Shown here: positions 43 to 10,100 of the stretch, piece by piece
Layout of the letters: each line of letters opens with the position of its first letter
Numbering within the stretch: the first letter of the stretch is position 1
NCBI GenBank assembly: GCA_026003235.1
Contig: BPGW01000001.1
Location: forward strand, 280,224-344,223
From: Bacteroidia bacterium
Lineage (GTDB): Bacteria > Bacteroidota > Bacteroidia > SpSt-205
Direction of reading: 5' to 3'
DNA: 64,000 nt
Made by a program: the position numbers and the translations under genes
The notes under the pieces: model-generated
The model's database searches: none
Seen by the model: only the letters and a program-made list of their open reading frames with translations
What the model was told of the DNA's origin: nothing

Positions 43-3000
43 ATGGGCGTTATGACCGAATCCACCCTTGAATCCATCGCCCTCGGTTGGCTCAAAGGCC
101 TGGGATGGCGCGTAGCGCACGGCCCCGACATCGGGCCAGAGGAACGCGCCGATTACAGCGAGGTGATTCTGAAGCGGCGCCTGCGCGATGCCCTGGTGCA
201 GCTGAATCCCGACCTCCCACCGGAGGCGCAGGAGGACGCCTTCCGCAAACTGACCCGCCCCACGGAAACCGACCTGGTCCAGCGCAACCGCACGTTGCAC
301 CGGTGGATGGTAGACGGCGTGACGATAGAGTACCGCCGCTCAGACGGTTCTATCGGCGGGGCGCAGGCCCGGGTCCTTGACTTCGACGATCACGCAAACA
401 ACGACTGGCTCGCGGTAAGCCAGTTCACCGTCAGCGAGAACCGCCACACCCGCCGGGCCGACATCGTGCTCTTCGTGAATGGCCTTCCGCTTGCCATCCT
501 TGAACTGAAGAACCCCACCGATGAGAAGGCCACCCTCTGGACCGCCTACCAGCAGCTCCAAGTCTACAAGCGGGAGATCCCTTCGCTCTTCGCCTACAAC
601 GAAGCGCTCGTCATCTCCGACGGGTTGGAGGCCCGCATTGGGACGCTCACCGCGGACCGAGATCGGTTCATGTCCTGGCGCACGATCGCCGGCGATGATG
701 TGGCGCCACCGGAGATGCCGCAGCTTGAGGTGCTCCTCAAGGGCGTGTTTGAGCGAGGTCGGTTTCTCCAGCTTGTTCGGGATTTCATTGTGTTTGAGGA
801 TGAGGGGGGTGGCAAGCTCACCAAGAAGATGGCGGGCTACCACCAATTCCACGCCGTGAATGTGGCGGTGGAGGAGACCCTGCGGGCTGTGGAGTTACCC
901 CCTTTGGTCAGGACAGCTGGGCAGCGGAGGACAGGCACCGAGGGCGACCGGCGCATAGGCGTGGTCTGGCACACCCAGGGCTCAGGCAAGAGCCTTACCA
1001 TGGTCTTCTACGCCGGTCGGCTCGTCCGCCACCCCAAGATGAAGAACCCCACCCTCGTCGTGCTCACCGACCGCAACGACCTGGACGGCCAGCTCTTCGG
1101 TGTTTTCTCCCGCTGTCGGGAGCTCCTGGGGCAAGACCCGATCCAAGTGGAGAGCCGGGCCCACCTGCGCAAGCTCCTCCAGGAACGGCAGGCCGGCGGT
1201 GTCCTCTTCACCACCATCCAGAAGTTCCTGCCCGAAGAGAAAGGCGACCGGCACCCGACGCTGTCTGAGCGGCGCAACATCGTGGTCATCGCCGACGAAG
1301 CCCACCGCAGCCAGTACGACTTCATAGATGGCTTTGCCCGTCATCTGCGCGACGCCCTGCCCGACGCCTCCTTTATTGGGTTCACCGGTACGCCCATTGA
1401 GCTCGACTGACCGAACACTCGGGCCGTCTTCGGCGACTACATCAGCATCTACGACATCCAGCGCGCAGTGGAGGATGGCGCCACGGTCCCCATCTACTAC
1501 GAGAGCCGCCTGGCCAAGCTCGCCCTGCCTGAGGAGCTGAAGCCGAAGATCGACGAGGAGTTTGAGGAAGTCACCGAAGGTGAGGAGGTCGAGCGCAAGG
1601 AAAAGCTCAAGACCAAGTGGGCGCAGCTTGAGGTCATTGTCGGAGCTGAGCAGCGCCTGCGCCTCCTCGCTCAGGACATTGTCCAGCACTTCGAGCAGCG
1701 GCTCGAGGCTGCTGGACGGCAAAGCGATGGTGGTCTGCATGAGCCGGCGCATCTGCGTAGAGCTGTACAACGTGAGATCGTCAAGCTGCGACCTGAGTGG
1801 GCCAGCGAGGACGACGACAAGGGAGAGATCAAGATCGTGATGACCGGCTCGGCTTCGGATCCGCCTCGACTGGCAGCCGCACATCCGCAACAAACAGCGC
1901 CGGGAGTTCCTGGCTAAGCGCTTCCGCGACCCGAAGACCCCTTCAAGCTCGTCATCGTGCGCGACATGTGGCTTACGGGCTTCGACTGCCCCAGCCTGCA
2001 CACCATGTACCTGGACAAGCCCATGCGCGCCCACGGCCTCATGCAGGCCATCGCGCGGGTGAACCGGGTCTTTCGCGACAAGCCCGGCGGCCTGGTGGTG
2101 GACTACCTGGGGCTGCCCACGAACTCAAGGCGGCGCTGGCAACCTACACCGAGAGCGGCGGCAAGGGCGCACCGCACTCGACCAGGCGAAGCGGTGAGCG
2201 TCATGCAGGAGAAGTACGAGGTCTGCTGCGACCTCTTTCACGGCCTTCGACTGGACGGCGTGGAAGACTGGCAGGCCGGAGGACGCGCCTTGCGCTGCTC
2301 CCGCACGGCCCAGGAGCACATCCTGGCCCAGGAAAACGGCAAGGACCGCCTCCTGCAAGCGGTCTCGGAGCTCTCGCGCGCCTTCGCGCTGGCGGTACCC
2401 CACGAGGAGGCCCTCGCAATCCGCGACGACGTGGCCTTCTTCCAGGCGGTGCAGCGGGCTGCGCTAACCGCGCGCCCGGCCAGGCCGAAGCCCGAGGAGG
2501 AACTTGAGCACGCGATCCGCCAGATCGTCTCCCGGCTATCGCACCTGAGGGCGTGGTGGACCTCTTCGCAGCGGCCGGCCTCAAGAAGCCCGACATCTCC
2601 ATCCTTTCCGAGGAGTTCCTGGCCGAGGTGCGGGGGATGCCGCAGAAAAACCTGGCGGTGGAGCTCCTGCGCAAGCTCCTGGAGGGGGAGATCAAGACCC
2701 GACGGCGAGAAGAACCTCGTCCAGGCCCGATCGTTTGCCGATGCTCTTAGAGCAGGCCCTCCGCCGCTACCAGAACCGCGCCGTCGAAGCAGCCCAGGTG
2801 ATTGAGGAACTGATCGCCCTCGCCAAGGAAATGCGCGAAGCGAACTGCAGGGGTGAGAAGCTGGGCCTGTCAGAGGAGGAGCTGGCCTTCTACGATGCAC
2901 TCGAGACCAACGACAGCGCAGTCAAGGTCCTGGGCGACGAGAAGCTCCGGACCATCGCCCGCGAATTGGTCGCGACCGTGCGCAACAACGTCACGATCGA

Positions 3001-3409: not shown

Positions 3410-3568
3410 ATGGCTAAGCCGGAAGAAATAAAGCCGGGCGTTTGGCTGAAAGGCTCGCCGGTCGGAAAAGCTGGCGCTGTGGTCACTTCCATGCACTTTG
3501 CCAGCGCACGCACATCGGGTTCGCATGGTCCAGATTCACTGGATGGTCGTATAATTGAGGAGGTATGA
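3410..3568 (+). pseudogene. Possible N-terminal remnant of a helicase-like defence gene (MAKPEEIKPGVWLKG...)
   Basis: Short reading frame inside ORF 3344..3568; its start resembles N-termini of some SNF2/DEAD helicases in restriction loci. Weak evidence. Confidence 0.2.
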
Positions 3569-3658
3569 AGGAGCCTACGTCGCAGAACTTAGATGTGGAA
3601 GGGGCAGTTGGAGCGCTGGAGCATGAAGATACGAAGGAGCCTATGTCGCAGAACTTAG
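3565..3658 (+). repeat. 28-bp direct repeat pair (3565-3592 and 3631-3658), 66-bp period, at the mod 5' end
   Basis: atgaaggagcctacgtcgcagaacttag versus acgaaggagcctatgtcgcagaacttag; encodes KEPTSQNL / KEPMSQNL in one frame. Confidence 0.9.
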
Positions 3659-4890
3659 CCAAACTCCAGTCCCTGCTCGCTGAACTCTTCCAGCTCGACC
3701 AGGCCGACCTGGACTTTGGGATCTACCGCATCATGAACGCCAAGCGCGCGGAGATCACCCGCTTCCTTGGGAAGCTCCTGCGGCAGGTCCGCGAGGTTCT
3801 GCAAGCCTACGAAAGGGAGAGCCGTGCGGCCCTTAAAGCGGAACTGGAGAAGGCCGAGGAACAGGCAAAAGCCCTCGGCTTTGACGATCCAGCTCAAGCC
3901 CCGAAAGTCCAACAGCTCCAAGCGCTCTACAACGCTGCTTTCAACGTGGAGGCAGCCGAGCAGGAAGTCTTCTCCCACCTCTACAACTTCTTCCGCCGCT
4001 ACTACAGCGAGGGCGACTTCATCTCCCAGCGCCGCTACAAAGAAGGCGTCTACGCCATCCCCTACAAGGGCGAGGAGGTCAAGCTCTACTGGGCTAACTA
4101 CGACCAGTACTACATCAAGACGAGCGAGTACCTGCGCAACTATACCTTCAAGCTCCCCTCCGGAAGGCGCGTCCATTTCAAACTGGTCGAGGCGGACACC
4201 GAGAAGGACAACAACCGCCCTCAGAAAGGCAACGAACGCCGCTTCATCCTCTCCCAGGAGCAGCCCCTGCTCGAGGAGAACGGCGAGCTGGTGATCCGCT
4301 TTGAGTACCGGCCCGATCCGGAGAACCGCAAGCAGGCAGACCTCAACGCAGCGGCGGTAGACCGTATCCTGAACCAGACTACGGGATTTGACCGCTGGCG
4401 GCAGGAGCTTGCCTCCCCCCCGCCCACCGAGAAAAACCCGAATCGCACGCTCCTGGAAAAGCATCTCACCGCCTACACCGCTCGCAACACTTTTGACTAC
4501 TTCATCCACAAGGACCTGGGCGGCTTTTTGCGGCGCGAGCTGGACTTCTATATCAAAAACGAAGTCATGCACCTGGACGACATCGAGAACGAAACCGCCC
4601 CCCGCGTGGAGCAGTACCTGGCCAAGATCAAGGCCATCCGCCGCATCGCCCACAAGATCATAGACTTTTTGGCGCAGCTCGAGAACTTCCAGAAAAGGCT
4701 CTGGCTCAAGAAGAAGTTCGTCGTGGAGACCCAATACTGCATCACGCTCGACCGCATCTTCGCTATCGAGGACGACGAAACGCGCGACTGGCTGCTCGAT
4801 CAGATCGTCAACAACGAGGCTCAGCGCAAGGAGTGGGTCGATCTCTTCGCCATCGATGAGCTACCCGATTACCCGTGGCGCAACCCAATC

Positions 4891-4926
4891 CCCTCTCCCC
4901 AACGGGGAGAGGGCCAGGGTGAGGGG
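4891..4926. repeat. Left terminal inverted repeat of the DUF559 element
   Basis: Reverse complement matches 5303-5338 apart from a few positions; contains its own hairpin. Confidence 0.9.
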
Positions 4927-5302
4927 TACAAACTCATCAAATCCCGCACGAAAGAAGAACGCAACGCCCTGATCCAAAAATTCGCTCGCGAGATGCGGCA
5001 TGCACCCACCGACGCGGAGCAACGCCTCTGGTATTTCCTCCGCGATCGGCGCCTAGGCGGTTATAAGTTCCGTCGCCAACACCCTGTAGGAAACTTCATT
5101 GCAGACTTTGCCTGTATTGAAGGACGCTTGATCGTAGAACTCGATGGGGGGCAGCACGCCGAACTATTTCAGCAAGAAAAGGACATCGCCAAAACGCGCT
5201 TTTTTGAAGAACGAGGGTTCCGTGTATTGCGATTCTGGAATAACGAAGTGCTCAACGATACCCAAACCGTCTTAGAGACGATTCTACAGGCGCTAGAGGA
5301 GG
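4927..5302 (+). CDS. DUF559 / very-short-patch-repair-like nuclease domain (reads through as part of the Mod ORF)
   Basis: RTKEERNALIQKFAREMRHAPTDAEQRLWYFLRDRRLGGYKFRRQHPVGNFIADFACIEGRLIVELDGGQH...KTRFFEERGFRVLRFWNNEVL is the typical DUF559 signature. An internal in-frame ATG lies at 4993. Confidence 0.85.
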
Positions 5303-5338
5303 CCCCTCACCCCAACCCTCTCCCCATTGGGGAGAGGG
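5303..5338. repeat. Right terminal inverted repeat of the DUF559 element
   Basis: See left repeat. Confidence 0.9.
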
Positions 5339-7192
5339 AGACACAGGCGGAAATTGCTCCCTCCAAGGAGGAGAGGGGGTTCTTACAGGCCCACCCCTCC
5401 CTAGTAGTGGACACCCGCCACTTCGATGAAGCTTTCAAACTGCGCCTGCTGGCGGCGATTCCGGATATTGACGAGGAGACCGACGGCCTGCTCATCCACA
5501 GCGAAAACTTCCAGGCCCTGAACCTGCTCTTGGAGCGGTACAGGGACCAGGTGAAGTGTATCTACATTGATCCGCCGTATAACACGGGCAACGATGAGGT
5601 TCATCTATCAAGGACAGACTACCAACACTCACATGGCTATCAATGATGGCCGACCGCTTTGCGTTAGTGCAAGTTGATGCGTGACGATGCGCTCCTCTTG
5701 TGAGCATTGACGAGAATGAGCTGACCGCCTAAAGAACTGGCTTGACGTCACTTGGCTGGGAACGTATCGTCAATACCTTATGTATGGATCAACAATCTAA
5801 AAGGACGAGATATCGAGCGGGCGCCGCCAGAACACACGATATGTGCTTCGCATATCTGGTAGCGAGTTACATTTGTGTCCCTGTGGCGAAGTTCACGAAT
5901 GCAGCCGAGTATCTACAAGGTTTCAACTATGGGACGTGAGGACGAGCAGGCTTCTATATACGAGGAATGACTCTACAAACGAATTCAAAATTCACGGGAG
6001 ACAAGACCGAGATCTGTGTCTTCAACGATCCGACTTACACTTCCTCAGGAGAGATTAGTTTTCGGAAGTTGACGATCAATTGAGTATGATGGATTTGTAA
6101 AGATCGCACCAAAGCCGAATAATGACGGCATTGACAAATACCACGCTTGGCTTGGGAAAAGAGAAGATACAAAGGGAAAAGTCAATCTAGAGTTCGTTAA
6201 GGAGAAGATGTGTAGAATCTACACCAAGGTTAGGGAGTTTCGGACAACTGCACTTGCTATGGACATCAGCACGATGTGGCGGCGAAGAACTCTCCAATTG
6301 TTCGGGAAAACTGCCTTTGGCTATCCGAAGCCTGTTTATCTGTTGAGGTGCTCTTGCAAGTTATCGGAACTAGAACTCATCCTCGACTACTTCGCCGGCT
6401 CCGGCACTACGGGCCACGCGGTCATCAACCTCAACCGCGAGGACGGCGGGCGGCGGAAGTTCATCCTGGTGGAGATGGGCGACTACTTCGACACGGTGCT
6501 CGTGCCGCGCATCAAAAAAGTCATCTTCACGCCGGAATGGAAGGACGGCAAGCCCAAGCGCATGGCGACGCCGGAGGAAGTCGCGCGCAGCCCGCGCCTC
6601 CTCAAGATTCTGCGCCTGGAATCCTACGAGGACACGCTGAACAACCTGGAGCTGAAGCGGACCGGGAATCAGCAGTCCCTCCTTGATCAGCATCCCGCCT
6701 TCCGCGAGGACTACATGCTCCGCTACATGCTGGATGTGGAGAGCCGCGGGAGCGCCTCGCTTCTCAACCTGGACCGCTTTGAGGACCCCTTCCACTACCA
6801 GCTCGATATCGCCACCGGCACCGCCGGCGAGACCAAGCCCACGGTCGTGGACCTGGTGGAGACCTTCAACTACCTGATCGGCCTGCGCGTGGAAAGCATA
6901 AAGCACATTGAGGGGGTGCGCGTGGTTACCGGCACGAGCCCGCAAGGCAAGCGGGTGCTCATCCTCTGGCGCAACACGAAAGAGCTGGACAACGACAAGC
7001 TGGACGAGTGGTTCCGCAAGCACGGCTACAACACCAAAGACAAAGACCAGGAATACGACCTCATCTACGTCAACGGCGACAACAACCTGATGAACCTTCG
7101 CGGTGAGAACCAGACCTGGGAGGTCCGGCTGATTGAGGAGGAGTTCCAGCGGTGCATGTTTGACGTGCCAGGACGTGTAAGGATTGGCCACC

Positions 7193-10100
7193 ATGCCAAG
7201 ACAACGAGCCATACAAGCGAATCAGCGAACACGGGCCACAGGCCAGCCCGTCCTGCGGTTTGAACAGCGGCTGGTGCTTCATCAGTGGCTGCTGGGCCTT
7301 TTTGGCGTGTCGAGCTTGGAGCGCCTGGCCGCTAACCTGAAGGGCCCGGAGCTGGAGGGCTTCGAGGAGGACAACCTTAGCCGCTTCTATCGACGAGCTT
7401 TGTCACCACATACCGGCGGACAAGCGCCCGCATCTGCCGGATGACCTGCTGCTGGCCTACGACCAGAACATCGTGCGCCATTGGAAACAGATTACGAAGA
7501 GGCGGAACCACGGAGGACCGTTTCTCTACCCGAAGTACTTCCAGTACCTGGCGCTGCTCTTTACCGAGATTTACCTTGACTGGTACTTTCGCAACCCGGA
7601 CGGGCTACTCGGTGAGCTCAACGGCCACGTAGAAGTCTTCAACGCTGCTGCGCCCGAAGCAAGTCGCCTCGCGCTGTATGAGAAGGAGGACCTGAACAAG
7701 CTGGCCTTCTGGATGGCGACGGGAAGCGGCAAGACGCTGCTCATGCACATCAACATCCTCCAGTACCAGCACTACCTGCACGCGCATCATCGTGAGCGTG
7801 AGCTCAACCGGATCATCCTGCTCACGCCCAACGAGGGCCTCTCCCACCAGCACCTGGAGGAGTTCCGGCTTTCGGGCATCCCGGCCGAGCTGTTCTCCAA
7901 GGAAGGCCGTGGCCTCTTCACCGGGCCGCGTGGTGGAGATCCTCGACATCCACAAGCTGCGCGACGAGGTGGGCGAGAAGACCGTGGCCGTGGAAGCCTT
8001 CGAGGGGAACAACCTTGTCTTGGTGGACGAAGGCCATCGGGGCACCAGCGGCGCAGAAACGGGCGCCTGGATGCAGAAGCGGAATCAGCTTTGCGAGAAT
8101 GGTTTTTCGTTTGAGTACTCGGCGACCTTCGGCCAGGCGATAAAGGCCAGCGGCAGCCCCACGCTGGAGCAGACCTACGCCAAGTGCATCCTCTTTGACT
8201 ACTCCTACAAGTACTTTTACGCCGACGGCTACGGCAAGGACTATCGTATCCTGAACCTGGAGAACGACTCGGACGGAGCGGTCCGCCACCGGTATCTCAC
8301 CGCCTGCCTCCTTACCTTTTATCAACAGCTCAAACTCTATCTGGACAAGCCGAAGGGGTTCCGGCCCTTCTTGATCGAGCGCCCGCTCTGGGTCTTCGTG
8401 GGGGGGAGCGTCAACGCGGTGCGTTCCGAAAAGGGGCGCAAAGTTTCCGACGTCGTGGACATCCTACTCTTCTTGGCTACCTTCGTGCGGGAGCGCAACA
8501 AAAGCGTTGAGATAATCGAACAGTTACTCAGGGGGAAATCAGGCCTGCTTGATCGAGAAAACCGGGACATTTTCGCCGGGGCGTTTACGTATCTGAACAC
8601 CCTTGGTCTCACGACCGATGAGATCTTCGACGACATCCTGCGCGTGCTCTTCAATGCCCCCCGCACGGCCAAACTGCACGTTGAGCACCTGAAGGGTACG
8701 GATGGCGAAGTCGCCCTTCGGCTGGGCGACAACGAACCCTTCGGCGTGATCAACGTGGGTGACGCCTCAGCGCTCTGCAAGCTGTGCGAGGAACGGAACG
8801 AGCTGGTCGTCACGGAGAAGGCCTTCTCCGGTTCCCTCTTCCGCTCTCTCAACGACGAATCGTCCTCGGTCAACATCCTGATCGGGTCCAAGAAGTTCAC
8901 CGAGGGCTGGTCCAGCTGGCGGGTTAGCACCATGGGCCTGATGAACATCGGGCGCAACGAGGGTCCGCAGATCATTCAGCTCTTCGGTCGCGGCGTTCGG
9001 CTCAAAGGCAAAGACTTCTCGCTCAAGCGCAGCCGGGCCTTAACGGATGGTGTAGTTCCTGCAAGCCGTAGGGAAACCAAGCGTCCCTCTGATTGCTGGG
9101 CAAAGGCCTTGATAAAAAAGGTGACTGCTAGCTTCTCAAAAACAACCAAGCAACAGGAACAACCCCCAGACCAAGCGGTTTCGGTTCCTCCGGAAGGAGT
9201 GACCCTACCAAGCTTCATCCAAGAGTTAGAAACGCTGTATGTCTTCGGCATCCGCGCGGACTACATGCGCCAGTTCAAGGAGTACCTGGAGGATGAAGGC
9301 CTGCCGGCGAACGAGGACCGGCTCGAGTTCGTGCTCCCCGTGATCAAGAACCTGGGTAGCAAGAAGCTGAAGATCGTTCGGCTCAAGGAAGGCGTAGATT
9401 TCAAGAAAGATGGTCAAAAGCCGGCACTCGATGGCAAGCCGCCGGAGTTTTTGACCAAGCACCCGATCGTTCTCGACTGGTATCCCAAGCTACAGGCCAT
9501 GGACAGCGGCGCGGGTCGGACCAGCGCACAGGTGGCAGAACGGGATCGGTGCTACTTCAAAGAATCGCACCTGGCGTTTCTCGACTTGGACGCCATCTAT
9601 TTCGAGCTTCAGCAGTTCAAAAACGAGCGAGGCTGGTACAATCTGACCATCCCGCGTGATAGCGTCGTCTCTCTCCTGAAGCAGAATGATTGGTACACGC
9701 TGTACATCCCCAAGGAGGAGATGGAGTTCCGTTCGTTCCAGCAAGTTCTCCGCTGGCAGGAGATTGCGACTGCTCTTTTGAAGAAGTACCTGGACCGTTA
9801 TTACAGGTTCAAGAAGCAGGAGTTCGAAGCCATCCACCTGGAGTACCGGGATCTGTCCGAGGACAACCCCAACTTCGTGAGCGAGTACCGACTGCTCATC
9901 GAGCAGTCGCGCGCGGACATTCTCCAGAAGCTAAACGAAATAAAAGAGTTAATCGAACGCGGAAGTCTGAAAGAAGCAGAGTTCTCTAGGTTGGCTTTTC
10001 AACGGGGTTCATTTCAGACTATCGCTTTTGCCAGGCACCTATATCAGCCGCTCATCTACGTCGGCAACAGCCTGATCGAGGTCAAGCCCGTGGTCTTAGA

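Follow-up and report, generated by a model that had tools for sequence, protein, structure and literature searches.

In the window, the stretch of 64,000 nucleotides of DNA analysed here, the gene for a Type III methyltransferase (Mod) holds, in its own reading frame, a DUF559 nuclease domain enclosed by inverted hairpin repeats. This arrangement raises the question of whether the nuclease is a native part of the methyltransferase or a mobile element that was inserted in frame into the host gene, as had been proposed in an earlier interpretation made from the letters of the window (referred to below as the sequence-only reading). With a probability of roughly 0.6, the insert is a copy of a widespread selfish, hairpin-bounded, nuclease-encoding in-frame element, the fused nuclease cutting DNA and repair copying the element into the break.

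The insert in mod and its site in related Mod genes

The element occupies 448 nt of the window (4891-5338), in which 36-nt inverted repeats bracket the DUF559 nuclease (Table 1). By inverted-repeat search, the two repeats are 89% complementary with a spacing of 376 nt, and each combines a CCCTCACCC-type tail with a hairpin, the stem being perfect over 10 bp and the loop 3 nt long; the imperfect 36-bp inverted repeats with stem and loop that had been described before are thus present. Folded as single-stranded DNA, the end hairpins reach about -11 kcal/mol (z -2.4 and -3.6). The pattern CCCTCACCCCAACCCTCTCCC, allowing up to three mismatches, matched only the two element ends within the 64-kb window and gave no match in 100 shuffles. 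The domain between the repeats was assigned to DUF559 by profile search, with the endonuclease-like protein 3HRL as a solved relative, in agreement with the DUF559/Vsr-like nuclease named in the sequence-only reading. The motif residues of this domain are, in domain numbering, Q47, D56, E67, D69, H73 and D82. An AlphaFold model built from the single sequence was too poor for use (pLDDT 44.6), and no promoter was detected when the element was scanned for one. The mod frame is open across all 448 nt and the other five frames contain 3-7 stops each, so that the claimed stop-free read-through holds, and for that frame alone.

Table 1. Features of mod and its insert, with positions counted along the whole window
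Feature	Position	Strand	Evidence and remarks
Type III methyltransferase (Mod), N-terminal host part to linker (FAIDELPDYPWRNP)	3565..4890	+	PADLOC MTase_III, E 9e-136 over the ORF; 86% identity to N-terminal Mod of L022
Left end	4891..4926	+	10-bp hairpin at 4891-4913, tail GGGTGAGGGG; translated PSPQRGEGQGEG; inverted repeat, DNA fold, shuffle control
DUF559 / Vsr-like PD-(D/E)XK nuclease domain	4939..5301	+	PF04480, E 9e-41; 3HRL, E 4e-30; motif residues 98-100% conserved (74 copies)
Right end, inverted copy	5303..5338	-	Tail CCCCTCACCCC, 10-bp hairpin at 5316-5338; translated PHPNPLPIGERE; inverted repeat, DNA fold, shuffle control
Degenerate extra hairpin copy, right flank	5355..5377	+	74% match to the repeat; translated PSKEERG
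Mod resumed, FLQAHPSLVVDTRHFDEAF to DPPY motif (VKCIYIDPPYNTGND)	5390..5646	+	DNA 5387-5648 77% identical to L022; tblastn
Mod C-terminal part, separate ORF, N6_N4_Mtase motif	6208..7263	+	PF01555, E 6e-8; 82% DNA identity to L022 from 6382

The degenerate third hairpin sits between the element and the resumed Mod. Mod homology does resume downstream of the element, as had been claimed, but its start lies slightly earlier than was given, at FLQAHPSLVVDTRHF. A gene for a Type III restriction enzyme (Res) follows downstream of mod. The Mod allele of the window, as assembled, is probably not an intact gene, because its reading frame ends at 5646 and positions 5649-6381 do not align to the closest relative, L022. 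This middle stretch of mod contains many frame breaks, with both of its sides aligning well to L022, and is either a hypervariable region that was assembled poorly or a remnant of an old pseudogene. Near the start of the window (43-2805), a Type I restriction gene (HsdR) breaks up into several ORFs that differ in frame, perhaps through sequence quality or decay.

A native DUF559 domain was sought in 80 related Mod loci. The domain was absent from 79 of them, and the idea of an insertion survived this check. The closest empty orthologue, L022, shows 84-86% identity in the N-terminal Mod segment, and its AIDEIEGDLATPGYSKPLKPEFLKAHRTLVVDTRHF corresponds to AIDELPDYPWRN-[element]-TQAEIAPSKEERGFLQAHPSLVVDTRHF of the window. 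About 10 host-side residues beside the window element (DELPDYPWRN) are unmatched in L022, and for this reason the Mod linker seems to have been replaced at the insertion rather than simply split. The sole orthologue bearing DUF559 (L004) belongs to a metagenome-assembled genome of Acidobacteria. Its insertion directly follows AID, about 10 residues upstream of the window site, in the same linker and with the same ends, and its DUF559 is 63% identical to that of the window. The contig of L004 ends within the right end; L324, from the same genome, begins there, carries two hairpin copies and continues in frame into AVEFLKAHPTLMVDTRHF, so that two right-end hairpin copies are present in the Acidobacteria insertion as in the window. 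On the Mod tree, the starred branches force the window and L004 insertions to be two separate events.

The window genome contains neither a second DUF559 nor further copies of the ends, so that mobility could not be demonstrated from the window alone. Ten congeners of this genome were rejected as an empty-site comparison, both DUF559 and this Mod being absent there. From the same two observations, the Mod island is probably foreign to the genus.

Recurrence in other genes and genomes

The wider distribution was determined in a class-level sample of 100 genomes, comprising that of the window and those of relatives, many of them metagenome-assembled. The class resembles Bacteroidia, the best named matches of the query for leucyl-tRNA synthetase (LeuS) being to Bacteroides, Phocaeicola and Parabacteroides. 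DUF559 was carried by 50 of the 100 genomes. Among 124 listed copies, the open frame around DUF559 was at least 350 aa long in 42 cases and at least 700 aa in 34, and 32 of the 61 copies that were read had at least 100 host residues on each side within one open frame. The hosts recognized by NCBIfam above curated cut-offs, in the stretches around DUF559, were MetH (methionine synthase), RecG, RecJ, acetate-CoA ligase (Acs), IcmF, HsdR and LeuS, and Pfam added a SpoIIE-type phosphatase and an Eco57I-type methylase. Hairpins that beat all shuffles were found on the left side of 27 and on the right side of 30 of 40 in-gene copies. The idea thus also survived the search for related ends at other DUF559 copies, many of which are flanked by related hairpins. 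In RecG, a short hairpin insert in one locus (L131) lies at the site where another (L125) has DUF559. No viral contig was found to carry a DUF559 element, and phages gave two weak matches.

LeuS, an essential protein, is encoded by a single copy in nearly all genomes searched, and two of its loops are used repeatedly. Loop S1, just before the editing domain, has 32 residues if empty, and loop S2, just before TTMPGWAG, usually has 29; with a DUF559 element the loops measure 169-256 residues. Among 77 LeuS, 12 DUF559 insertions were located at S1 and 8 at S2. Parsimony on the tree of these 77 gave 12 changes for S1 and 6 for S2, an estimate, since the tree is a quick one with weakly supported forks. 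Within genus g79, S1 is occupied in L251, L255 and L274 and empty in L254, L259, L276 and L277; within genus g44, S2 is occupied in L266 and not in L265, their LeuS DNA being 87.7% identical. Short inserts free of DUF559 were also found at both loops, among close relatives of occupied or empty ones. The S2 insert of G097, PHPQPFSKGEG...SLSFGEGRGEA, consists of two hairpins and no nuclease, and similar short inserts are present at S1 of G092 and at S2 of L255 and of L253 and L257. These comparisons show repeated gain or loss of elements at the same LeuS loops, and the short DUF559-free versions look like derivatives. Together with the two independent insertions in Mod, the repeated LeuS insertions support the proposed spread of a mobile-type element by stop-free, in-frame insertion.

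A target duplication, which the sequence-only reading had proposed to look for at occupied and empty sites, was not readable in these comparisons, in which flank identity was 81-91%. At this identity, a few host residues were seen to be replaced. On the plasmids of S. meliloti and Azospirillum, no clean strain-level empty site was found. In one single-contig genome (G068), the LeuS with a DUF559 insert at S1 (L144) changes frame just after the insert, either by sequencing error or by a real break in an essential gene. At S1 of L169, the left end carries several tandem hairpin copies, and the insert, in which a GFSPQERG-like peptide is repeated, reaches 256 residues. The S1 loop of L192, which DUF559 elements occupy in other species, holds a different palindromic repeat family in frame, reading RHPELVSGSDNEMLKQVQHDD.

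The ends vary greatly among genomes and fall into types of opposite polarity. In the Bacteroidia type (GCCTCACC...hairpin...DUF559...hairpin...GGTGAGGC), the tail is outside and the hairpin inside, as in L122, L185 and L203, whereas in the window type, seen in the window, L004 and S. meliloti (L119), the hairpin is outside and the tail inside. The exact repeat pattern was detected in 18 of the 100 genomes, and the reversed control pattern gave no match. DUF559 was present in 17 of these 18 genomes and in 33 of the 82 others (p 3e-5, kinship ignored). One genome, G038 (L286-L305), has 87 repeat matches, mostly solo with some inverted doublets of about 160 bp, in the REP-like form CCTCACCCCAGCCCCTCTCC-A(n)-GGAGAGGGG; its DUF559 is a single copy and contains a stop. 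The Azospirillum and Sinorhizobium records with window-type DUF559 hold 10-20 such repeats each, some as close inverted pairs. In S. meliloti (L119:1800-2500), the DUF559 gene lies between nested double hairpin repeats, whose inverted arms exceed 110 nt.

On a tree of 74 DUF559 copies, those of the window and L004 group with the Azospirillum and Sinorhizobium copies (97, starred), and the Bacteroidia copies are separate. A clade of 38 Bacteroidia DUF559 consists of in-gene copies only, the free-standing copies being placed elsewhere (SH-aLRT 89 and 85). Copies from Acs, RecJ, CoA transferase and RluA of four genomes are close neighbours on this tree. That in-gene copies from different genes can be such close neighbours points to movement of the elements between genes. 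The motif Q...D...E.D...H, including D56, E67, D69 and H73, is 98-100% conserved in the 74 copies. The dN/dS of DUF559 was 0.025-0.08 in the four pairs with estimable dS, four further pairs being dS-saturated, and in the testable pairs the domain is under purifying selection.

The sequence-only reading had also suggested that the nuclease could be expressed separately, starting at the ATG at 4993. Within the 35 codons that precede the domain, an ATG in frame is present in 18 of 20 free-standing copies but in 19 of 40 in-gene copies, and is thus missing in 2 of 20 and 21 of 40, respectively. The suggestion is weakened by these counts, and internal-ATG expression was rejected as the general mode for the family. 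Having no in-frame ATG close by, roughly one in-gene copy in two is probably produced fused to the host protein, unless GTG or TTG starts are used.

Proposed mode of spread and its competitors

In the mechanism that we favour, the element consists of inverted REP-like repeats (a GC-rich hairpin with a CCTCACCC tail) around one gene only, which encodes a Vsr-like nuclease of the DUF559 family. Since the whole element including its ends is open in one frame, an in-frame landing in a surface loop or linker would keep the host protein and add the nuclease as an extra domain. The fused protein, or free-standing relatives, would then cut or nick DNA. The substrate would be an allele that lacks the element, a hairpin repeat standing alone or hairpin DNA with mispairs, and recombinational repair would place a copy of the element at the break, in the manner of homing endonucleases. 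The nuclease would accordingly be both the mover of the element and a protein acting at hairpins. Any insertion that disrupted the frame of an essential gene would be purged, so that those in frame remain. Active cleavage is plausible because a DUF559 protein, VsrA, is responsible for the SOS response in Caulobacter lacking the methyltransferase ScmA (PMC12907096). The recurrence at the same sites of LeuS fits homing. Ectopic insertion in many unrelated genes does not need homing and goes beyond it, so that classical, allele-specific homing is insufficient.

The main rival, which we hold to be unlikely, is transposition in trans, as for REPINs, in which a Y1 transposase (RAYT/IS200-like) encoded at another place of the genome would move the hairpin-tail repeats as single strands, with DUF559 as a passenger or accessory. 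Inverted hairpin-plus-tail repeats, solo copies and doublets resemble REP dimers, and the 87 repeat matches of G038 stand beside just one, stop-containing DUF559; a passenger role, however, leaves the strict nuclease conservation of the in-gene copies unexplained. A Y1 transposase was matched in 43 of 49 class-level genomes with DUF559 and in 23 of 38 free of it (p 0.005, kinship ignored), yet the window genome (82% complete) and six other DUF559 genomes gave no such match. GTAG and CGTC are the tags of REPs (PMC3733652), and neither is carried by the element ends, of the window type (hairpin-GGGTGAGGGG) and the Bacteroidia type alike.

It is improbable that DUF559 in Mod is a domesticated host nuclease for restriction or repair, Type IIG-like and retained for that use. 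The host protein in the window belongs to the DNA methyltransferases, nucleases of the DUF559/Vsr-like kind act together with methylation (PMC12907096), and hosts acting on DNA (RecG, RecJ, HsdR and Eco57I-type) occur elsewhere too, but most hosts, such as LeuS, MetH, Acs and IcmF, are unrelated to DNA. Nor does a retained function agree with the 79 of 80 orthologues in which the domain is missing, with the Type III Res gene already downstream of mod, or with the Mod reading frame broken beyond the insert. The fusion of Mod and nuclease into a Type IIG-like restriction enzyme was dropped after LeuS, MetH and other non-DNA hosts had been found.

Equally little weight is given to absence of the insert from the protein by mRNA splicing, ribosome bypass at the hairpins or protein splicing. 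Such removal would need neither a stop-free insert nor a host frame that is kept, as it is in the cases read except L144; the insert codons are moreover under purifying selection, and Pfam scans of the host proteins report no intein domain. These points weigh against the strong paired hairpins at both ends and the ease with which insertions in essential enzymes would be tolerated if removed. Finally, an assembly chimera or decayed pseudogene of no wider meaning, which the Mod frame broken beyond 5646, the many metagenome-assembled genomes and the ending of contigs L004 and L324 in the repeat might suggest, is very improbable and for the family already refuted, since the arrangement recurs dozens of times, in genomes, genes and families independent of one another, with a conserved motif and dN/dS well below 1.

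Relation to known systems

A full-text search of open-access PMC papers found no description of DUF559 elements inside genes. The chances are about even that the selfish elements favoured here form a distinct autonomous class: a hairpin-bounded cassette with a nuclease as its sole gene, which invades essential genes and persists there since its product, ends included, is an extra domain that the host protein tolerates, the solo repeats being non-autonomous descendants or targets. If this is true, a whole nuclease gene, readable in frame from end to end, parasitises essential genes with no need of splicing, and the host enzyme itself carries the parasite's nuclease, as a splicing-free counterpart of inteins. 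Housekeeping enzymes could gain new loops and domains from such elements, and where LeuS, MetH or RecG is annotated as fused to DUF559, this would be an insertion and not a designed multidomain enzyme. The movement of in-frame palindromic repeats, such as Rickettsia palindromic elements (RPEs) and intragenic REPs, would also become directly testable.

Vsr-like (EDxHD) homing endonucleases accompany introns or split genes and are not known to have hairpin ends or in-frame fusion. They share a Vsr-type fold within selfish DNA, to which DUF559 is related here via Pfam and 3HRL only. VsrA of Caulobacter (CCNA_02930) belongs to the same DUF559 family and is a free-standing host gene proposed for mismatch repair (PMC12907096). 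With the REPIN/RAYT system (REPtron), the DUF559 elements share a hairpin plus tail, inverted doublets and solo copies that far outnumber the enzyme-bearing ones, such multiple copies being found in relatives and not in the window genome. Unlike REPIN/RAYT, they encode a PD-(D/E)XK nuclease and not a Y1 tyrosine transposase, have no GTAG tag and lie inside coding sequence.

The nearest kind is that of the RPEs and intragenic REPs, likened here by description. RPEs are palindromic repeats that sit in the reading frame of mutually unrelated protein genes and are translated as an extra stretch (PMC10969869), and intragenic REPs are likewise palindromic, in frame and translated within protein genes (PMC3733652). 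RPEs are about 150 bp long and intragenic REP dimers usually give 20-30 residues, with no enzyme reported, whereas the DUF559 element has 448 nt with a full nuclease domain; the short DUF559-free derivatives alone fit the small, enzyme-free size of RPEs. Inteins with homing endonucleases are also nuclease-bearing in-frame inserts of conserved, often essential genes, variably present among relatives. Unlike inteins, the DUF559 element has no splicing domain (Pfam scans of the hosts gave DUF559 and host domains only, and no Hint splicing domain), its hairpin ends are translated, the insert appears to stay in the host protein, and one lineage is found in many unrelated genes. By analogy, the element may best be likened to an intein without splicing, or to a Rickettsia palindromic element with an enzyme of its own.
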